Assembly: GCA_946544235.1 (NCBI GenBank)
Contig: CAMNMC010000105.1
Span: 1-64,000 of the forward strand
DNA from: an uncultured Lachnospiraceae bacterium
GTDB lineage: Bacteria > Bacillota > Clostridia > Lachnospirales > Lachnospiraceae
Length of the DNA stretch: 64,000 nt
Direction: 5' to 3'
This document shows, one piece after another, positions 50,217 to 63,276 of this stretch. A program made the position numbers and the translations under genes. The notes under the pieces are model-generated. The model was not told where the DNA came from, did not search any database, and saw only the letters and a list, made by a program, of their open reading frames with translations. Every line of letters starts with the position of its first letter. Positions within the stretch are counted from its first letter, which is position 1.

Positions 50217-50245
50217 GAGACAAAATGGGTGGATTGTGATATAAT
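50217..50245 (+). promoter_or_regulatory. Promoter of the YfhO-like gene with extended -10
   Basis: GAGACA, 17 nt, then TATAAT preceded by TGA (TGnTATAAT). It lies 57 nt upstream of the ATG, downstream of a run of T residues. Confidence 0.65.
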
Positions 50246-50302: not shown

Positions 50303-53300
50303 ATGAAGGATACAAAAAGCAGCAATAATACAGCCATTGATACAACGAAAGAGAATAATAAATCAATCAAAAAGAAAGACAAAAACACTAAAGAAGGACT
50401 GCCAAAGAAGCACGAAAAAAGTCTTCTATACGTACTTGCCTTTGCCATACCATTTGCAGTTGCTCTGATCGCACTTGCCATGGGAGGCTTTGCTCCGTTC
50501 GGAGATAAGGATGTTCTGACAACCGGCGGCTTTGAAAAATACAGATATTTTCTTAATGATCTGCATGACAAGGTGAATGAAGGGACGATAAACACTACAG
50601 GTCTGGTATCATCACAGGGATACAGTGTATCCTCTTTCTGGGCTTATTACCTTTCAGATCCGACCAACCTCATCACTCTGCTCTTCTCCAAGGACAGTAT
50701 GGCAGATGTGCTGAATCTTTTATATGCCATAAAGCTTGGTCTTGCAGGTCTCTTCTTCAGCTTCTTCCTTTCTTACAGAAGACGTATTTCTGCAGAAAAG
50801 AAGCTCGTTATGGAAGGCGAAAGAGCTGATATCATAACCACCTACAGAGAGAAGATAGCCGCTAAAAAGAAGGCAAAGCTTGTTGCGAAGAGTGGTGCCA
50901 AGAATGCCAAGAACCAGCAGTTTGATGTTAAGCTGGGAGGAACTGATGACCCTGAGGGCGGCGCGCTTCTCTTCCTTAAGAAGTTTGATATGATCACTCT
51001 CGCTCTTTCAGTTACCTATGCACTTTCAGCATATATGCTCGGAAGCGGACTTAATGTTACATGGCTCGGCGCTGTAGCTGTATTTCCGCTTGTAATGCTC
51101 GGCATAGATAAGCTTGTCAACGAAAAGAAATGGCTCTTCTACACGCTTTCTCTTGCCGTATCCTTCTATATGAATTTCTATATAACGATCATTGTATTTA
51201 TCTTCACTTTTGTTTATTTCTTCCTTCAGGATTACAGAGATACAAGACATATCGTTACTACAACACTTTATAAAATAATGAGTGATATATTGGCGATCGG
51301 AACCGCGTCTCTTGTAATAGTTACATCGATGAGAAGCAGTCTGATGAGCAGTATGCTTTCACTTGAGTTTCCTTATGCAGAATCCAGTGTCAAGATATTT
51401 GACGTCATCAAGTATCAGCTTGCCGGTGTTAAGCCTGATGCCGCAACAAAAGGTTCAGACGGCGTAATGATCTATGCAGGTATATTTGTCCTGCTGCTCA
51501 TTTTCATGTATGCACAGAACGGCAACATCAATCTGAATACACGTATCAGGAACATTATTCTTACATCTGTTCTTTATGTTGCAACCTTCCAGACCACACT
51601 AAATTATCTCTTTAATGGTTTCTACTATACTAGTACAAATTCAACAGTTTTCGGATTCATACTTATATTCATGCTGCTCCAGATAGCAGAAAGCGTTCTG
51701 ACAAATATCGAGCATCAGAGAGGCACAACAGTCACAGTATCATTTATCATTTTACTGGGGCTTATCTTTGCGTCACTCTCACTTTCATCAAACTATACTT
51801 CAATGTCACCTTTCATGACGAGTCTTGAGCTTGCTGCATTATATTTCTTCATAGTAATCCTTTACAGAAATGACAGTATGACTCACATACTCTTCAAGAC
51901 TGTTTTCGGTCTTGCTGTTATAGCTGAAATAGCCGTATCCTTCGTAAATGGTCTCAGCAGTTCAGGAAAGAAATCAATAACTTACGCTGAGACAGACGTT
52001 GCAAGATACGAAGCTGCCGAAGATCACATCCATGAAACAGATCCAAATGCAAAGGTGGATGTATTTATAGATGGTCAGAGTTCTTCAAATCCAGTTACAA
52101 ACATGCTTGCCGGCATAGATTACGTTATAGCACTTGAAGGTACAGATCATATTGTAGATTACCTCGACCACCAGGAAACCTACAACGGAATTGAAATATA
52201 TAAGAACAGAGTCTCTGTTGATAATGGTTTCTTTGTAGACGAAGAAGTCAAAGATATTGCTTTTGATGACGAAGAAGTATTTAAATCATTGAATCTTCTA
52301 ACAAAATCACTTGGAGACGTAGAATGCTTCGATCTGCTTTCCGGTAGTTTTTCTGCCGAACGTGTTTTTAAAGTTGAAAATGATGATTTTATTGAGACGC
52401 GTGATCTCAGGCTCACTTTTGTAACTCCAACAACAGGACGTCTTTACGCTACAATCCTTGGAGATGTGGTCTGTCTTGGCGAAAAATTTTACGATCAGAC
52501 AACCATGTTTGTTTATACTCCTCACAACAAACCATCTATTTACCTGCTCACGCAATGCAGCTATGCAAATATTAATGTCTCTGAATATGACAAACTGTTC
52601 GATTCGATCAGGGTTAATGCCTCTGCCTATACAAATGACAGCAGACATATTTCCTACAATGCTGAATCAGATGGTTATATTGCTCTTCCATATGATCCGG
52701 ATTCCGGTTATGAAATATCGGATGCTGCTTATATCAGAATTCTTGATACAGAATACTGTCTTGTTCCGGTTAAGGCCGGTTCAAATGATATCAGTTTAGA
52801 GGTTGATAACTGTTCTATGGTTACAGCCATAATTCTGACTGTCATTTCTGTAATCTGTCTTATCGCCGTGGCAATGCTCGTCAGGTCAAAAATAGCCGGC
52901 AAATCCGAAGTTACGGAAAAGAATGGGGAATCAGTCAGATTCGGACGTCTTATATCCTTTGCTTCATCAAACAGAGTTTACATACTTTTATTTGCGATCA
53001 CAAGTATGGTCTTCTGTATGCTGCTCTTTCTCAGATCAACAACACCATTTGGTAAAGGACTGTTCCTTACACATGACGGAATGCATCAGTCTTATCCAAA
53101 TATAACCGGAACCATCAAATCATTATTCAGTGGTGATTTCAGCCTTGTTGATTATCATGTTGGAGCAGGAATAGATAATTATGTAGCAAACTTCCCGCTG
53201 ATCATAATACCTGTTTATTATTTAGTTGCACTATTCCCACTGTCAAAAATGCAGCTTTGTTTCACTCTGATCAGTTATATCACTTTTCTTCTTCCGGGAA

Positions 53301-55603
53301 TGGCTCTGCTGGTATATCTCACACACAGACCGCGCGGAAAGAAACTCGAGAAAACAAATCTCCTTCTGTTACCACTTGCGCTTGCATATAACCTTTCAGC
53401 CTTTGTAGTATCATATATTTCACACGTAGGCTTCGTTCAGCTGGCTATTCTCTTCCCGCTCTTCATTCTTGCCTTTGAGAGACTGATATATAACAAGAAA
53501 TATCTTATGTACGTGATAATACTCTCTTATATGATGGTATGGGGTGTATATTATGCCTTTATGGTTGCTGAATTCACCGTGCTTTATTTCCTTTGTTCCG
53601 AATTTGATGGTGTTAAGGATTTCTTCGTAAAAGGCATCCGAACACTCATCTATTCAATTGTGTCTGCAGGACTCGCTATGGTAATGATACTTCCATATTA
53701 TCTTTCAACACTTTCATCACCATACAAGGGACTTGACAGTTCAGTGCCGGGATTCAGCTTTGTTCCTGAATTCTTTAATATCTTTGACTTTATGAAGACA
53801 GGCTCTAAAGCTGTTATCATTACCGAACATGATTGGCATGTTAACCTTTACTGTGGCTTACTGATATTCCTTCTGATTCCAGTCTATGCTTTCATAAAGA
53901 ATATTAAGCCATCCATTCGCATCAGAAAACTTGTTTTGGCCGTATTTTTGTTCATATCATTCGGAAATCCTTTCCTGAACTTCGTACTTCATGGTTTCCA
54001 CGTACAGTCTAAGGTTCCTAACAGATTTTCATTATTCCTTATATTCCTGATCATTACCATGGTTTACGATATAATAGTTAATGCTTCAGATTATAAGCTT
54101 ACGTTCCCGGCATTTTCCGGTATGGTAGCTCTCGGAGCAGCTTTATCAGTTATCTTCATCATGAATGATAAAGGTACGTTGAACCTTTCAACAAAGGTCA
54201 GCATCACTTATATAGTGATCTACCTGGCTATATTTACACTTGTAAAAGTAAAAAAGAAACATCTAAATATTATGAAGCCATTATCACTGCTTCTGATATC
54301 AGAGCTTCTGTTTTCAACTTTCTATCTAACAAGACATGATATTCTCGGATCACATTATACATCTGAAGATAAGTCATATTATACAGCCGAGAAGCTTATT
54401 GAAAATAATGATCTGGACAAATACCATGATCGAACAGAATACCTGTCATCTCATCTTAACAGTTCGATGTTCCTCGGTACTGAGTCCGTTTCTATTTTCC
54501 ATTCAAATATGACTTCTGCAAATATCGATTTCGCCAGAATACATGGTTTAGGTGTTGCACCAATAACCAATAATATTAATTATACTCTTACCAACCCTAT
54601 AGCTGATCTCTTCCTGAATGTAAGATACCACATAATTAACGATTACTTTGAAGATAATCTTACCTACAGCTATATGAAGGAAATCGACTCATCTTCTAAC
54701 CTGACGTTATATGAGAATCCATATGCTGTTTCATTTGGTTTCTTTATTGATAAAAACAACATCTATAACAAACTCAATGATGGCTCTATTTATAATGATC
54801 AACCATTCGTGAGTCTCATGGATACTCAGAATCTCATTGCTCGTGAGATGACCGGTTCAGATTTGTACGATCTTATCGAGATAGAAACCGAACTTGAGAA
54901 TGTGACCGAAAAATCCTCATACATCATGACAGATGATTCTGAATTTGATGATCCAAATAACGAAGAACCTGTTGCTCATGTTAAGGTTGTCCTTGGTGAG
55001 GACATTACGGGCGATATCTATGTAAGTTTTGGATTCTTTGCATATCTTACTGATAAGGAAACAACAGATGTAAAAGAAATATACTTTGATATTGACGCTG
55101 ACAGGTATTATACATATTCAGGCAGCACCTTCTATCTTGCAAAGCTGAATGAGGATACTCTGGCAAAGATGCATGAAACTCTTTCCATAGCACCTCTTAC
55201 CGACATCAAAGACACCTTCAATTCTATCAGCGGAAATATAAACGCACCTTCTGACGGTACAGTTTACATCTCCCTTCCATATCAGGATGGATGGACAGCA
55301 ACCGTTGACGGCAAGGATGTAGAGATAGTTGAATTTCTTGAAGGAATCGGAATTCCGGTCAGTGCAGGTCAGCATAAGATTACTATCAGTTATATGACTC
55401 CGGGACTTAAAGCCGGTGGACTTATCAGTCTTATCACTCTCATACTCTTCATCGGTTTTATAATATTTGATCGCAAGGTTCTTTCAAAACGTAAAAACGA
55501 TGAGGATACGACTGATGAAGATGAATCTGTCAAAGACGAATCTGTTGATTGTAATTCAGATGATAGCGCCTCTGAGGCAGCTGAGGTCAGCAATGAGGCA
55601 TAA
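50303..55603 (+). CDS. Double-length YfhO-type membrane protein (tandem duplication)
   Basis: YfhO proteins are multi-pass GT-C-like membrane proteins linked to lipid-carrier or glycolipid glycosylation in Gram-positives. This 1766-aa protein contains two copies. Copy 1 (about 40-855) has FAIPFAVALIALAMGGFAP and TTGGFEKYRYFLNDLHD, and ends in a beta domain plus helix. Copy 2 (about 885-1740) has THDGMHQSYPNITGTIKSLF and AGIDNYVANFPLIIIPVYYL, and the C-terminal DGWTATVDGKDVEI with PVSAGQHKITISYMTPGLKA typical of YfhO. Copy 1 carries a Lys-rich cytoplasmic loop (about 160-215). The tail is acidic. The start is ATG 50303 rather than GTG 50285, with GGAGG upstream. It is monocistronic or followed by efp. 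Confidence 0.85.
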   Translation: MKDTKSSNNTAIDTTKENNKSIKKKDKNTKEGLPKKHEKSLLYVLAFAIPFAVALIALAMGGFAPFGDKDVLTTGGFEKYRYFLNDLHDKVNEGTINTTGLVSSQGYSVSSFWAYYLSDPTNLITLLFSKDSMADVLNLLYAIKLGLAGLFFSFFLSYRRRISAEKKLVMEGERADIITTYREKIAAKKKAKLVAKSGAKNAKNQQFDVKLGGTDDPEGGALLFLKKFDMITLALSVTYALSAYMLGSGLNVTWLGAVAVFPLVMLGIDKLVNEKKWLFYTLSLAVSFYMNFYITIIVFIFTFVYFFLQDYRDTRHIVTTTLYKIMSDILAIGTASLVIVTSMRSSLMSSMLSLEFPYAESSVKIFDVIKYQLAGVKPDAATKGSDGVMIYAGIFVLLLIFMYAQNGNINLNTRIRNIILTSVLYVATFQTTLNYLFNGFYYTSTNSTVFGFILIFMLLQIAESVLTNIEHQRGTTVTVSFIILLGLIFASLSLSSNYTSMSPFMTSLELAALYFFIVILYRNDSMTHILFKTVFGLAVIAEIAVSFVNGLSSSGKKSITYAETDVARYEAAEDHIHETDPNAKVDVFIDGQSSSNPVTNMLAGIDYVIALEGTDHIVDYLDHQETYNGIEIYKNRVSVDNGFFVDEEVKDIAFDDEEVFKSLNLLTKSLGDVECFDLLSGSFSAERVFKVENDDFIETRDLRLTFVTPTTGRLYATILGDVVCLGEKFYDQTTMFVYTPHNKPSIYLLTQCSYANINVSEYDKLFDSIRVNASAYTNDSRHISYNAESDGYIALPYDPDSGYEISDAAYIRILDTEYCLVPVKAGSNDISLEVDNCSMVTAIILTVISVICLIAVAMLVRSKIAGKSEVTEKNGESVRFGRLISFASSNRVYILLFAITSMVFCMLLFLRSTTPFGKGLFLTHDGMHQSYPNITGTIKSLFSGDFSLVDYHVGAGIDNYVANFPLIIIPVYYLVALFPLSKMQLCFTLISYITFLLPGMALLVYLTHRPRGKKLEKTNLLLLPLALAYNLSAFVVSYISHVGFVQLAILFPLFILAFERLIYNKKYLMYVIILSYMMVWGVYYAFMVAEFTVLYFLCSEFDGVKDFFVKGIRTLIYSIVSAGLAMVMILPYYLSTLSSPYKGLDSSVPGFSFVPEFFNIFDFMKTGSKAVIITEHDWHVNLYCGLLIFLLIPVYAFIKNIKPSIRIRKLVLAVFLFISFGNPFLNFVLHGFHVQSKVPNRFSLFLIFLIITMVYDIIVNASDYKLTFPAFSGMVALGAALSVIFIMNDKGTLNLSTKVSITYIVIYLAIFTLVKVKKKHLNIMKPLSLLLISELLFSTFYLTRHDILGSHYTSEDKSYYTAEKLIENNDLDKYHDRTEYLSSHLNSSMFLGTESVSIFHSNMTSANIDFARIHGLGVAPITNNINYTLTNPIADLFLNVRYHIINDYFEDNLTYSYMKEIDSSSNLTLYENPYAVSFGFFIDKNNIYNKLNDGSIYNDQPFVSLMDTQNLIAREMTGSDLYDLIEIETELENVTEKSSYIMTDDSEFDDPNNEEPVAHVKVVLGEDITGDIYVSFGFFAYLTDKETTDVKEIYFDIDADRYYTYSGSTFYLAKLNEDTLAKMHETLSIAPLTDIKDTFNSISGNINAPSDGTVYISLPYQDGWTATVDGKDVEIVEFLEGIGIPVSAGQHKITISYMTPGLKAGGLISLITLILFIGFIIFDRKVLSKRKNDEDTTDEDESVKDESVDCNSDDSASEAAEVSNEA

Positions 55604-56461: not shown

Positions 56462-57103
56462 CTATCTAACTACCTTCTCAAAATCTTCTTTAGGATGCTT
56501 GCAAATTGGGCAAATGAAGTCATCAGGAAGTTCTTCTCCCACGTATTCATATCCACAGATAGTGCAACGCCATATTGTCTCTCCCTTTGGTGTCTGTCCA
56601 ACAGCCTGTGGCTTTGGTTTAATATTGATCTGGTAATACTCATAAGTACATGATGGCACATCCGAAAGTACTGTCATAAAATCCGGTTTGCAAATAAATA
56701 GTGTATGCGAGCCAAGATCCACCGTACTTATAACACTTAATGAAAAGAAGGCATTTGTTCCTTTAACGATAAATGGAATACCATTATCAGCCATCTCATA
56801 ATTATCAGCAGGATAATCAGCTGCAAACTTGTCTACATCTCTTCCGGATTGGAATCCGAAATGCTTAAATACCTCAAAATCAGCGTCATTACTTAAAACA
56901 GATATGTTGCATTTACCTGTCTTGACTATCATATCATGTGTAAAATTAGCCTTATTTATAGCTACAGAAATCGTATTAGGGTCAGAAGCAACCTGAATAG
57001 CTGTATTTGTTATACATCCATTCATCTTAGTTCCGTTAACCGCTGTGCATACGAAAAGACCATAAGATAACTTATACATTGCTTTTGTGTTGTTCTCAGG
57101 CAT
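56462..57103 (-). CDS. Flavin reductase-rubredoxin fusion protein
   Basis: Residues 1-160 form an FMN-binding flavin reductase-like domain (KLSYGLFVCTAVNGTKMNGC, DPNTISVAINKANFTHDMI, HFGFQSGRDVDKF). Residues 174-213 form a complete rubredoxin with one iron site: Cys180, Cys183, Cys198 and Cys201 in WRCTICGYEYVGEE and DDFICPICK. Such fusions pass electrons from NAD(P)H or flavin to oxygen- or peroxide-reducing partners in anaerobes (high-molecular-weight rubredoxin type). AAGGGAGG precedes the ATG. Its neighbours do not clarify the partner. It is distinct from the flavin reductase at 6846. Confidence 0.92.
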   Translation of the reverse strand: MPENNTKAMYKLSYGLFVCTAVNGTKMNGCITNTAIQVASDPNTISVAINKANFTHDMIVKTGKCNISVLSNDADFEVFKHFGFQSGRDVDKFAADYPADNYEMADNGIPFIVKGTNAFFSLSVISTVDLGSHTLFICKPDFMTVLSDVPSCTYEYYQINIKPKPQAVGQTPKGETIWRCTICGYEYVGEELPDDFICPICKHPKEDFEKVVR

Positions 57104-57333: not shown

Positions 57334-60300
57334 TTAAGTCAGATCATGAAGTTCAGGCTTAAGAATGATCTTAATTCTTGTGTAAATCGGATCACCCTTT
57401 GAAGGAATTACCTTTACAACGATATATGTATATTCATTATTGTAGAGATAGTTATCCTGAATCTCAAGCATTGATGGAGTAATCGTCGTACCATTAAGGT
57501 TATAAGGTGTACCCTTAAGAGCTGTATCCTCATCAATCCATAAGAGATATCCGGAAGCTATCCATGGATTCTCTGTCTTGCTATATGTACCAGACTTATT
57601 GAAATTCTTGTCATATACAAGTACATGCTTTCCATCTTCTGAATGATATTCATCATCCGGATTTACTTCATCATAATCAAGATCGTAGTAAGCTAAAACT
57701 TCTGCTATCTCAACTGAAGAATCTGATGTAAAGAGAGATGAGAACTTAGGAACTGAACCCTCTGTTATAGTCATCTTGTAACCAAGTGTACCATTCTCCT
57801 GTACAGTCTTATTTGTAAGACTTGAAGACTGAATAGTACCTGATGAGGTCACAACCTGTGATGAACTATGATCATAAAGGTCAAGAGTTGAATTCTTCGT
57901 ACTCTTACGTCCTGTGTTAAGAATAAGGTTAATGAAGAATCTACGCTCATCGTTATTCTCTCTCTTGTAACCTGTTACAACTGTACGTCCAGCACCAAGA
58001 TACGTTACTGTACCTGCATTGTTACCCTTTGGCTGATACTGGTATACAAAGTAATTGTTACCACCATCAAGAGGGTTTGCTGCATAGTTCGATGACATCG
58101 TACCGGATGTACCACCTGATAATGAATAGTATACAATGAGATTCTCATCAGCAACATTGATCGTAAAATCACCTTCAACTGTTGGTGTAACACGGAGATT
58201 AGCACCGATACTGAATGGATACATTGTAACTATACCTTCATTATTCTGTTCTGCGGCATTCGTTGCTACATAATTCTGTGCTGCAAACTGCATCATATCT
58301 TTTCTCGGATGGGTCTTTCCTTCCGCCTCAAGATTTGGATAATATAAGCTGTAATTAAATGTGGTTGACTTATCTGAATCAGATGTCTGACCAAGCGCCG
58401 TAGCATATGTTAGTTTTGAAGGATTAAGTGCAAGTGGAGCACTATTACCACCACCATTATCGCCTGAATTCTGTTCTTCTTTAATAATAGCATTCGAAAC
58501 AGTTATACTAACTGAAGATGTCCCTCCATTACCTGGAATAGAACCTTTTTCAGCTCCATTAACAAATACTCTTCCACCCGAACCATAATATTGATTTGAA
58601 CTAGTTGCTGTTATATTAATCTTAATATTATGTTTTCCGTAGTTTCCTTCATTACTGGTTCTGTTATCATAAGCTGTAATACTAAAGTCGCTTCCTATAT
58701 TACCATTGTAATTAATAGTAATATTTACTTCTGTAGCTGCTGTATCAACTGTATAAGTTCCGAGAGCTCCAGAATTCCAAGGATCCAATATATCTATTTT
58801 TATGGTTCCTTCATAAGTATCTTCTGATGTTGATACATCTGATCCACCACCTGATGTGATATCAGACTCAGGCTCTGAATAAGCATTCATACCAAAGTAC
58901 GATGAAAGCCTTTTAGTCATATTTGCAGTGGAATTTGTTGATCCATATTTATCACCGCCAGATGTAAGTGAATCATAGAAAAGCATTGTCTGACCACCAT
59001 CATTGATATATTTAATGATAGAATCAATAGCAGCGTCATTAAGATCACCACCAGCAAAGTTTTCAGCCGCACCAAAAACGATACAGTTATAATACTTTGC
59101 AAGTTCAAATTCACCTGAATCATTTACAGCTGCAAGCAGTGTATAATACTCAAACATCTTACGGAAGAACTGCTCATAAATCTTTCCATCACGCCAGTTT
59201 TGATATTCACTCGCATATCCGGCCGGTACATGTCCACCTGACTGATAGAGTGAGAAGAAATCATAATAAGGTCTGTCTGAGTAGTTATCAAAAGACAACT
59301 CATAATCTACTTCTCTGGCTAACACAGCACTACCGGATCTGTAACTGAGAAGAAGATTCTCGAGCTTACCTCCTGAGGTTGCAAAAACATCAAGAATTGT
59401 TTCGAAGTTAGAATACAGGATTTCAGAAAGCTTCTTTTCCTTGTACTCATTGACCCAGTTCGTTCTTTCTTCACCTGTAAGAGCCGGAGTAAGCTTATCA
59501 ACTTCTGCTTCAGCCTCAAGCTGTGCAGCTAATATTTGAGCGTTAGTTGGAGCAATACCGTAACCCATTGCATCTTTCCTGAACAAATACTTCTGAATGG
59601 CTGATTTTTCATTTGTTGTGAGTCCACCATTTTTCACTTCATTCTTGTATGTTCCATTAACAACCTTCACCATACCATTATAGGCATTCTGGAATTCAGA
59701 GGCTGCTATAGAGAATTTACTTCTTAAAGTCTTAATCTCAGAAGTATCTTTGCCATAATAAAGATCATTTATATCGTCAATTAGTTTCTCAAACTCACTG
59801 ATATAGATGATATTCATATTAACATCATAATCATTCTCAACTTCTCTGAACCAGTTTGTATTCCAGTCATCAAGCCCTGTCCAATTACCGGAATCTGTGG
59901 TGAGATCACTAAAATACTTAACTATTCCAAACCTGTGCTGATGTACACCCAGTCTAGTTGGTATACTAAATCCAAACTCTCCCGATGTACCATAATCCTG
60001 CATGCCTTCAAGATAAAGTGTACTGTCTGTATTCTGAGCACTGGAAATATAGTGTTTGATATTATTCTCTACAGTGGTGGTTTCGCCAACACTTGTCCAA
60101 CCGCCATCCATAGGATTTCTATCAGTGAAACCGGCAGTTAACTTTAATACGGAGTCATCTCCATACTTGTTAAGAGCAATTCTGTTACCATGAAGAACAA
60201 ATCTTGATTCCTGACATTCTGTACAGAGGAACAATGACAATTTACTGTTATCAGAACCGTTCTTCTCTTCCTGTGTACCATCCGGCATAATCTGAAGAAG

Positions 60301-63276
60301 ATTAACTTTAATCTTTTCCTGATTTGTTCTCTTAATCTTGAGACATCCTGTTGTTGATGCCTTTGAGCCTGAATTATTCTCAACCTCAAGTTTCCAATAT
60401 ACAACACCAAAGTAATCAGGATCAAATTTCTTTGAAAGCGTTCCCTTAGCGCCATCCTCTGTATCAACTATTTCATCAGCCTCGAAACGACTGTTTGCAT
60501 TATCATCGATATAGAGACGACCGGTAAATCCGGCTCCGCCAGCTGCTTCATAACTCCATCTTACAGTACGATCTGTTATCCAGGTTGACTCATCGCCTTC
60601 CTTGTACTGAACAGGAGCACTGGTAATAACAAGCTTAGGTCTCTTAGAGGAATCATTAAGTACTCTTCTAAGATCAGCTTCGTTTACGCTTGATGAATCA
60701 ATGGTAACAGGATTACCCATATAATCCTCGAGTTCATTACCACTAAATACAGTTACATAGCCATCATAAGTATTTCCGTACGCTCCTCCGGCATTCTGGA
60801 TCTTAACCTTGTCCTCAAAATTGAAGTTCCAAAGTATATTATCCTTACCGTTTGCATGATCAGTCTGACAAGCTGTAAGGAAACTATACATGTAAGAATC
60901 CGGATCAATTGCATTTCTTCTTGCAGAAGTCAAACCGGCGCATGCATCTTTACCGATTATAATCGGCATGCCGTTCTTCTTATACTCCATAAGCTCGTCA
61001 TACTTATTCTTGCTTATGTCATTACCCTCAAGGGTTCCTACTGAGCCATCGCTTGCGCCATATTTCTGCGAATAATCATAAGCATCACCATTTGTAAAAT
61101 ACATATTGTAGGTATCAAGACCAATGCTGGCAAGCTTTGATGAATGGTAAGCGTTTAGATTCTTAATTCCGGAATTATCGCCTCCAATATATATCGCATC
61201 AAAATTATCAAGAACCGTCTTCTTCGTACAATTAAATTCGTATGTTGACATATGTACAACATTAACTTCATTGTATTCAAGGCCAGTTGCATGAGCTATC
61301 TTGGCTTTTGAAAGTGTCCACGCATAATAATCGGTTACAGTTCCAAGCTGAGCACTTGTTATATTATCTCCGCTCTCAAGGAAAGTTGTAAGTGAATGTT
61401 CTCCATCAAACGATATCTCATCTGAGGTTGTATTATTTATAACTCCTTGATTTCTAATATAATACCAACTGTTATTTGCCGTATTTGCATATTCGCCTGA
61501 TGACATTGGTCGATCACGTCCGGTAACCTTAGCAAAAGTCATATTGGCAACATATGGATTGTTCTCAAGAGGATCAGTATATCCTTTTATATGATTACCG
61601 CCATCAATTTTAGCAAATTTTTTAGCAAGCGTTGTATCTATCGGATAAGCAGGCTGAATCTCAAGTACTGTGTACAGATTTGAGGAATCACCATTACCAC
61701 CACCGATACCTCTGTATGAAGCATAGTTGATGATATCTGCAATATCCTTGACAGCTTCCTTATTATTAGCTGACATATAAACCTTCATTCTCGAAGGACT
61801 GGTTACAAGAATATTATCATACTTACCAACTTCTGTTGAGGTCATAGTCTTTCCACAAACATAGAGGTAATTCTGACCATAATCTGTATCATTACTTACG
61901 CTGTTATCGATACTTCCGGTAGCAAGAGAGCTATCATAAAGTATACAAACATTACCCATCATAGCACTATACAGATTATTATAATTCTCCTGACTAAGCA
62001 TTGTTAATCCGGCTGCTGCCTCAACGATAACTATATCATATGCTGCATAATCTATAGTATCGAGTGCAGGATCACCACCATCATAATAATCATAGGTTAC
62101 AAATCCCGGTATATTCTTACGACTTGCATAAGCTGATCTGAGCGGAGAATCCTCCTTAATGCTATACAGATTCTTGGTATATACAGCTGCATCTGCTGTA
62201 GCCTTATCGATAAGTTTGATTTCATTACCATCCTTATCAACCGTATCAATAGCATATGTTTCTCTTGTATCAGCTGTTACAAGCTTGTAATTAAGGCCTT
62301 CCGGTGTACCATCGTTTAATGGCTCAAGACCGATCTTGGTAAGATCAGATATCTTCTTCTCAGAACCACCCTTTCCTATAACAAGGATACTTGCGGTGTT
62401 ACCAAGCTTATCGTTAAGCTTATAATACTCGCCGCCTTCAACTACATCCTTGACTGCATCACCTGATGTAGCTATCTCACCATCAGCAAGGTTTGTAAGA
62501 TCATAATTAGATAAAGAGCAAAGTCTTACCCATCTTGATTTTCTCGTAGAACCATCGATCTGAATATAGTAAGAGGTTTTATGTGTAAAGTAATCAAGTG
62601 GTGAAGTCTGTGTTGTAGGATTCCACTCAGTTGTGAAATACTTACCACCCTTCTTCTTAAAGCCATTTGTTGCAAGATCGCCATAAGAAGCAGAATTATC
62701 ATCAATTATTTCCTGTGTAGCAACAGGTCCATCGATGATGAATGGGACATAATCACCAACAGCAGCACTACAGAGCTGTAATTTGATCATCTCTGGGATA
62801 TCATTACTGTTCTTTCCGAAGAAATTGTACGGATCATTATGAACATATATGAGATCTGCCTTTGCTATTGCATCAATACAATTCTGGATTGCAGCATCAG
62901 ACATATTAACAGTATCATATGCCTTATAATCGATCATGCCTTCCTTCATTGACTGATCAGTGATTGTTTTGTATCCATTAAATACATATTCAGTAAATAT
63001 CTCTGAAGTATTTGATCCGCTCATTGCTGAATAGCTGCTGCTTGAACTGATCTCAACAATATGGAAATACGGATCAGAGCCACTATTTGAATTCTGTACT
63101 ATTCTATCAATATTGTAAATCGTTACAATATCGATATCCGGTTCAGCTTCAACAGTATTGGTAGTATCTCCGCCTCCGTCTGCCGCCATAGTGAATGAAA
63201 GTACAGTAACAAATGCGCATACAACTAACAGAAGTGATAAAGCTGCAACTAAAATCTTTTTATTAATTTTTCTCAT
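57334..63276 (-). CDS. Giant secreted protein, DUF5057-like
   Basis: The 1980-aa protein starts with a signal peptide or anchor (residues 1-32, LVAALSLLLVVCAFVTVLSF). It is then Ser/Asn/Asp/Tyr-rich with very few Cys. IDIVTIYNIDRIV and PYFHIVEISSSSS near the start recall DUF5057 proteins of Lachnospiraceae. I see three segments built like class-I glutamine-amidotransferase/ThuA folds. These are YDIVIVEAAAGLTML (about 414), DAIYIGGDNSGI (about 692) and YNCIVFGAAENFAGGD (about 1395) followed by INDGGQTMLFYDSL. Ig-like strands surround WSYEAAGGAGFTGRLYIDDN (about 910). No LPxTG or C-terminal membrane helix is visible. AAGGAAGGTGATAAC precedes ATG. The function is unknown. Confidence 0.72.
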   Translation of the reverse strand: MRKINKKILVAALSLLLVVCAFVTVLSFTMAADGGGDTTNTVEAEPDIDIVTIYNIDRIVQNSNSGSDPYFHIVEISSSSSYSAMSGSNTSEIFTEYVFNGYKTITDQSMKEGMIDYKAYDTVNMSDAAIQNCIDAIAKADLIYVHNDPYNFFGKNSNDIPEMIKLQLCSAAVGDYVPFIIDGPVATQEIIDDNSASYGDLATNGFKKKGGKYFTTEWNPTTQTSPLDYFTHKTSYYIQIDGSTRKSRWVRLCSLSNYDLTNLADGEIATSGDAVKDVVEGGEYYKLNDKLGNTASILVIGKGGSEKKISDLTKIGLEPLNDGTPEGLNYKLVTADTRETYAIDTVDKDGNEIKLIDKATADAAVYTKNLYSIKEDSPLRSAYASRKNIPGFVTYDYYDGGDPALDTIDYAAYDIVIVEAAAGLTMLSQENYNNLYSAMMGNVCILYDSSLATGSIDNSVSNDTDYGQNYLYVCGKTMTSTEVGKYDNILVTSPSRMKVYMSANNKEAVKDIADIINYASYRGIGGGNGDSSNLYTVLEIQPAYPIDTTLAKKFAKIDGGNHIKGYTDPLENNPYVANMTFAKVTGRDRPMSSGEYANTANNSWYYIRNQGVINNTTSDEISFDGEHSLTTFLESGDNITSAQLGTVTDYYAWTLSKAKIAHATGLEYNEVNVVHMSTYEFNCTKKTVLDNFDAIYIGGDNSGIKNLNAYHSSKLASIGLDTYNMYFTNGDAYDYSQKYGASDGSVGTLEGNDISKNKYDELMEYKKNGMPIIIGKDACAGLTSARRNAIDPDSYMYSFLTACQTDHANGKDNILWNFNFEDKVKIQNAGGAYGNTYDGYVTVFSGNELEDYMGNPVTIDSSSVNEADLRRVLNDSSKRPKLVITSAPVQYKEGDESTWITDRTVRWSYEAAGGAGFTGRLYIDDNANSRFEADEIVDTEDGAKGTLSKKFDPDYFGVVYWKLEVENNSGSKASTTGCLKIKRTNQEKIKVNLLQIMPDGTQEEKNGSDNSKLSLFLCTECQESRFVLHGNRIALNKYGDDSVLKLTAGFTDRNPMDGGWTSVGETTTVENNIKHYISSAQNTDSTLYLEGMQDYGTSGEFGFSIPTRLGVHQHRFGIVKYFSDLTTDSGNWTGLDDWNTNWFREVENDYDVNMNIIYISEFEKLIDDINDLYYGKDTSEIKTLRSKFSIAASEFQNAYNGMVKVVNGTYKNEVKNGGLTTNEKSAIQKYLFRKDAMGYGIAPTNAQILAAQLEAEAEVDKLTPALTGEERTNWVNEYKEKKLSEILYSNFETILDVFATSGGKLENLLLSYRSGSAVLAREVDYELSFDNYSDRPYYDFFSLYQSGGHVPAGYASEYQNWRDGKIYEQFFRKMFEYYTLLAAVNDSGEFELAKYYNCIVFGAAENFAGGDLNDAAIDSIIKYINDGGQTMLFYDSLTSGGDKYGSTNSTANMTKRLSSYFGMNAYSEPESDITSGGGSDVSTSEDTYEGTIKIDILDPWNSGALGTYTVDTAATEVNITINYNGNIGSDFSITAYDNRTSNEGNYGKHNIKINITATSSNQYYGSGGRVFVNGAEKGSIPGNGGTSSVSITVSNAIIKEEQNSGDNGGGNSAPLALNPSKLTYATALGQTSDSDKSTTFNYSLYYPNLEAEGKTHPRKDMMQFAAQNYVATNAAEQNNEGIVTMYPFSIGANLRVTPTVEGDFTINVADENLIVYYSLSGGTSGTMSSNYAANPLDGGNNYFVYQYQPKGNNAGTVTYLGAGRTVVTGYKRENNDERRFFINLILNTGRKSTKNSTLDLYDHSSSQVVTSSGTIQSSSLTNKTVQENGTLGYKMTITEGSVPKFSSLFTSDSSVEIAEVLAYYDLDYDEVNPDDEYHSEDGKHVLVYDKNFNKSGTYSKTENPWIASGYLLWIDEDTALKGTPYNLNGTTITPSMLEIQDNYLYNNEYTYIVVKVIPSKGDPIYTRIKIILKPELHDLT

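Follow-up and report, generated by a model that had tools for sequence, protein, structure and literature searches.

A tandem YfhO protein of Lachnospiraceae with one predicted catalytic and one predicted non-catalytic GT-C module

The double YfhO gene and its two modules

The window analysed here is a stretch of 64,000 nucleotides from an uncultured Lachnospiraceae bacterium (assembly GCA_946544235.1, contig CAMNMC010000105.1). Positions 50303-55603 of its forward strand form one intact open reading frame (ORF) that encodes 1766 aa from an ATG and contains no internal stops. A GGAGG ribosome-binding site (about 50286) lies ahead of the ATG at 50303. The features of the gene are as follows.

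50217..50245, + strand: upstream promoter-like site, GAGACA-17-TATAAT with TG (consensus match only)
50303..55603, + strand: tandem YfhO protein, 1766 aa, a single ORF with PF09586 twice
50303..52942, + strand: N module, residues 1-880, predicted non-catalytic GT-C (PF09586, model; without the first-loop Asp, His and Arg)
52943..55600, + strand: C module, residues 881-1766, predicted catalytic GT-C (PF09586, model; first-loop Asp and HGxH...PNR present)
50495..50530, + strand: first-loop motif of the N module, PFGDKDVLTTGG, with Gly75 at the place expected for the catalytic Asp (Asp in 0/35 N modules)
53045..53080, + strand: first-loop motif of the C module, PFGKGLFLTHDG, with Asp925 (module Asp45; Asp in 36/37 C modules)
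51614..51649, + strand: N module counterpart of HGxH...PxR, NGFYYTSTNSTV, residues lost (module alignment)
53990..54025, + strand: HGFHVQSKVPNR motif of the C module, with His1230, His1233 and Arg1241 (Arg in 37/37 C modules, conserved in single YfhO)
50780..50953, + strand: Lys-rich insertion of the N module between TM2 and TM3, predicted cytoplasmic (model helices, composition; in most N modules)
52055..52804, + strand: beta domain near the C-terminal end of the N module, predicted to be extracellular (strands in model)
54431..55393, + strand: beta domain near the C-terminal end of the C module, predicted to be extracellular and containing VDG (strands in model)

TG-extended -10-like promoter matches near the double YfhO gene were no more frequent than in shuffled sequences. 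At the window locus, we recognised neither an adjoining gene for a CsbB-type GT-A or a GtrA protein nor any operon partner, and the GtrA and GT2 matches of this genome lie on other contigs. The three-component CsbB-GtcA-YfhO arrangement, in which a GT-A partner and a GtrA flippase stand alongside YfhO, was not recognised there. On the reverse strand, positions 56465-57103 encode a fusion of a flavin reductase domain with a rubredoxin-like one, and positions 57337-63276 encode a large DUF5057 protein that has a signal-like helix at its N terminus. The DUF5057 gene is found beside efp and the double YfhO gene in many relatives, and its product is a possible acceptor of the double YfhO.

The initial annotation described the protein as two complete but strongly diverged YfhO modules in one chain, and this description holds. 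Each half separately matched PF09586, with 181.8 bits for N and 302.1 bits for C (Pfam cut-off 28.5). A profile of N modules aligned with a profile of C modules over 763 columns (E 2.7e-72), which excludes chance and identifies both halves as full modules, homologous along their entire length. Inside one protein they are only about 18% identical. Structure prediction yielded a confident AlphaFold model of each half (pLDDT 81.0 for N and 83.8 for C; pTM 0.83 each). The models and Foldseek comparisons place both modules in the YfhO layout, a GT-C core with many transmembrane helices and a large extracellular domain before the last of these. The closest solved folds to the C model were AftD, ArnT with undecaprenyl phosphate bound, PglB and STT3; those to the N model were EmbC/EmbA-EmbB, PIG-U and STT3, and only one N hit fell below 1e-3. 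As the chains are long and flexible, the TM-scores are low, and the fold search therefore supports the GT-C class and nothing finer. A sequence search of the PDB returned no meaningful match.

Three sequence traits named in the initial annotation fared differently. What it called a pore-loop pattern is the PFG...D motif found in extracellular loop 1 of GT-C proteins. Copy 2 does have the VDG turn and copy 1 does not, but copy 1 of other genomes often has VNG or nothing at this place, and we rejected VDG loss as a diagnostic trait because it varies among N modules. The Lys-rich loop of copy 1 (residues about 160-217) is real, and as it follows TM2 it is predicted to be cytoplasmic. Most N modules have such a loop, which ends in 'kD.k.GG.e.P', and several do not.

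Active-site residues and constraint in the N and C modules

In the GT-C enzymes PimE, ArnT, ALG6 and PglB, the catalytic base occupies the place of the first-loop Asp; in PimE this is Asp58, and K195 and H322 hold the phosphate (PMC12041525). In YfhO, a conserved DXD motif was not found (PMC5836110). We read an alignment of 104 modules at two sites, the Asp of extracellular loop 1, which lies at PFG + 8 and is Asp925 in the C module, and the HGxH...PxR motif. By analogy with those GT-C enzymes, these would be the base and the phosphate ligands of YfhO, and the HGFHVQSKVPNR motif of the C module is the probable donor-phosphate site.

The loop Asp was present in 36 of the 37 C modules and in none of the 35 alignable N modules, where Gly (25), Ser (8) or Asn (2) stands in its place; a further N row has a gap. 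Among 30 rows of single YfhO proteins from Lachnospirales, 25 have the Asp, three have no letters in the column, and two are exceptions, one being a fragment of N type and the other a partial row that is misaligned; with these two set aside as misassigned, 25/25 alignable rows have it. The Arg of the second site (Arg361) is found in 37/37 C modules, 0/35 N modules and 28/30 single YfhO rows, the exceptions being the same two (28/28 without them). Seven residues, D45, C209, S238, H350, P359, R361 and H811, are conserved at 90% or more in both C modules and single YfhO and never occur in N modules, from which H353 is also nearly absent (6%). The rule held in loci fetched afterwards and not used for finding it: N modules had 0/13 at Asp, His and Arg, with three rows without letters at the Asp column, and C modules had 13/14 Asp, 14/14 His and 14/14 Arg. 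The residues expected for catalysis are thus kept in C and lost in N across about 50 modules of each type. Because the counted sequences are related, the loss of the loop Asp and of the His and Arg of the motif probably goes back to a single event in an ancestor, with no later reversal.

The N module is thereby a homologue within the YfhO family but not a canonical YfhO enzyme, as it has neither the loop Asp nor HGxH...PxR. N modules have near-invariant residues of their own (K69, D89, S118-D119, N122, G249, E509). They have also gained acidic residues, of which D119 is invariant and D70 is conserved at 90% or more, and a few have an Asp one residue after the expected place (loci L145 and L153 and the third module of L136).

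To the loss of catalytic residues and the retained fold of the model we can add constraint on the gene, a combination that fits a GT-C pseudoenzyme on the basis of sequence and model. With synonymous sites near saturation, dN/dS in closer pairs (Nei-Gojobori) was 0.09-0.19 for N and 0.06-0.13 for C, and these comparisons indicate that the N modules are under purifying selection. Pairwise identities of N and C correlate across 29 proteins (r=0.92), as expected of parts that are inherited together.

The initial annotation had proposed one catalytic and one supporting half. The conserved split of the predicted active site, including the held-out set, speaks for this proposal, but the basis given for it does not: the case rests on the first-loop Asp and HGxH...PxR and not on the loss of VDG or the Lys-rich loop.

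Distribution and history of the fusion

Full-length double proteins of 1435-1845 aa occur in many genomes of the same genus, and at least 33 of 61 of these genomes have a frame of more than 1400 aa. Named carriers are Eubacterium ruminantium ATCC 17233 and FB3002 and the Lachnospiraceae isolates YSB2008, AC2029 and AC2031. The gene is often found at one locus, as in the window, between asp23/nusB/xseA and efp. Outside the genus, we searched 249 other genomes of the family (mostly one per genus) with the N-module profile. Two further genera carry the fusion, as does a third in which a contig end truncates it; we therefore rejected a genus-restricted invention. In 294 other genomes of the order, the matches listed from beyond the genus, in a list that stopped at weak matches, were all frames with a single module and no more than 1150 aa, and no fused relative was found in the plasmids searched.

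The phylogeny has three clades, one of N modules, one of C modules and one of the single YfhO proteins of Lachnospirales. With wider sampling N and C each remain a single clade, and a grouping that holds N and C together, as an origin by internal duplication would have it, is at the edge of rejection (p-AU 0.049). Whether fused and split forms coexist had been raised as a question in the initial annotation; one apparently split pair was observed. This pair is in genome G346, where N and C are overlapping separate ORFs beside efp (L153, 895-3297 and 3272-5899). The junction lies in a run of eight A, and a real split, slippage and a sequencing error are all possible. As one base in this run decides the frame, the exception may be the erroneous one.

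Other arrangements of these modules were also observed. Triple YfhO proteins of about 2460 aa have the order N-C-N (L079, 2138-9538, the same as L040, 938-8338; and L136, 1018-8397), and both of their outer modules are without the loop Asp in the aligned column. One gene cluster (L042, G015:C39:55500-75000) holds two doubles and several single YfhO genes within 20 kb. The single YfhO of the genome studied here is an apparent GtrA-YfhO fusion, a flippase domain with a GT-C enzyme, divided between two contig ends of overlapping sequence (L004, 1036-1959, at the end of C81; L001, 1-2412, at the start of C91). A further form is a chimera in which a C-type YfhO module precedes a DUF6020-like membrane module (L117, 2495-6835; L156; L157; L073, 14780-17560). 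The YfhO modules of the L117, L156 and L157 chimeras have Asn, Asn or Ile for the loop Asp (lost in 3/3), and the DUF6020-like part keeps a DD motif. Pfam detects DUF6020 in the L073 copy only (2.2e-8).

Possible roles of the two modules

YfhO is required for lipoteichoic acid glycosylation in B. subtilis (PMC5836110). From YfhO genetics (PMC5836110), the GT-C mechanism and the residue pattern found here, we consider it probable, though well short of certain, that the protein is a catalytically asymmetric double, a live C-terminal transferase with an N-terminal GT-C pseudoenzyme as its helper, either a scaffold or an acceptor clamp. The C module would take a sugar from undecaprenyl-phosphate-sugar at the outer face of the membrane, with Asp925 as the base and the His and Arg of HGxH...PNR holding the phosphate, as in the analogous enzymes, and would pass it to an acceptor in the envelope. 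The N module would have lost the base and phosphate ligands while keeping the fold, the beta domain and its own conserved residues for structure and binding. The covalent linkage would fix helper and enzyme at 1:1, with the modules presumably packed side by side, as in the intramolecular heterodimer suggested by the initial annotation, and the N module would most likely hold or present the acceptor or stabilise the catalytic module.

The strongest rival is that both halves are catalytic and that the N module has a relocated active site, its acid moved to D70, D119 or the Asp at +9, with which it adds a second sugar in a two-step process like that of PgfM1 and PgfM2 but within one chain. In Streptococcus mutans these two proteins act at successive steps (PMC5856776), and D119 or D70, judged by their conservation, could have become a new catalytic centre in the N modules, a few of which carry the +9 Asp. 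However, N modules are also without His350, Pro359 and Arg361, D70 lies five residues early while the PFG anchor aligns without a gap, and the PgfM1/PgfM2 profiles score 38.7/45.8 bits with N against 97.6/139.2 with C. We regard this rival as unlikely, because the phosphate-site residues were lost simultaneously.

A less probable alternative, to which we give little weight, is that the N module handles lipid, for example by moving or delivering undecaprenyl-phosphate-sugar to C in place of a separate GtrA flippase. In its favour, this genome's single YfhO apparently carries a fused GtrA domain and the double protein has none, and N, which has lost the transfer residues, retains the membrane core and has acquired a basic, predicted cytoplasmic segment. 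Yet this segment is missing from several N modules, the fold searches with N found no resemblance to a flippase at a significant E, and the genome has another GtrA frame on contig C107.

That the N module is a functionless, decaying passenger is very improbable: its active-site residues are lost and its constraint is slightly weaker than that of C, but its low dN/dS, its own invariant residues, its full length in at least 33 genomes and the addition of a second N module in two triple proteins all argue for a function. An assembly or frame error that joins two genes, which would have undone the initial annotation, can be dismissed almost entirely. The two overlapping ORFs of G346 speak for it, but they lie at an eight-A run and may themselves be erroneous, and the frame is unbroken in many independent assemblies, among them E. 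ruminantium ATCC 17233 and the single-contig AC2029 and AC2031.

The asymmetric double can be compared with several known systems. The YfhO proteins of Bacillus, Listeria and Staphylococcus (PF09586), which act in CsbB-GtcA-YfhO teichoic acid glycosylation, belong by profile to the same family as both halves and share the GT-C fold with many transmembrane helices and a large extracellular domain before the last. Here, in contrast, there are two modules per chain, one of them without the Asp and HGxH...PxR, and a CsbB/GtrA partner is not recognised at the locus. PgfM1 and PgfM2 are likewise two YfhO-type proteins in one pathway, and the C half is nearer to PgfM2 (139 bits), but they are encoded by separate genes and both are thought to act in sugar addition; the best score, 139.2 bits, is far below the NCBIfam cut-offs of 1400 and 1500 for the equivalogs NF047589 and NF047590. 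Mycobacterial EmbA-EmbB, among the closest solved folds to N, are two related GT-C proteins paired at the envelope, although they are separate chains of another family and use a lipid-linked arabinose donor. PIG-U of the GPI transamidase retains the GT-C fold without glycosyl transfer (PMC12041525) and is a supporting subunit, but it is eukaryotic, a separate chain and part of an unrelated reaction. No description of tandem YfhO proteins or of bacterial GT-C pseudoenzymes was found in the literature searched, of which the coverage was incomplete. Judged from its sequence, the novelty of the double protein, which otherwise belongs to the known YfhO/GT-C kind, would be that a dead GT-C module is paired covalently with a live one, with a putative mechanism.

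More tentatively, and with slightly less than even confidence, we suggest that a GT-C pseudoenzyme placed covalently ahead of a live GT-C is a recurrent bacterial architecture, which would have arisen at least twice in these bacteria, in the N-C doubles and in the YfhO-DUF6020-like chimeras; the dead module would have taken on a new role, either clamping the acceptor or acting as an allosteric partner. Bacteria decorate their envelopes with GT-C enzymes, some of which are drug targets, and how these enzymes recognise their acceptors is poorly known; it has been speculated that some depend on another protein to bind the acceptor (PMC8035078). A natural protein that joins a predicted dead to a predicted live GT-C module, and that has persisted through deep divergence in cultured rumen bacteria, would offer a direct system for testing this idea.
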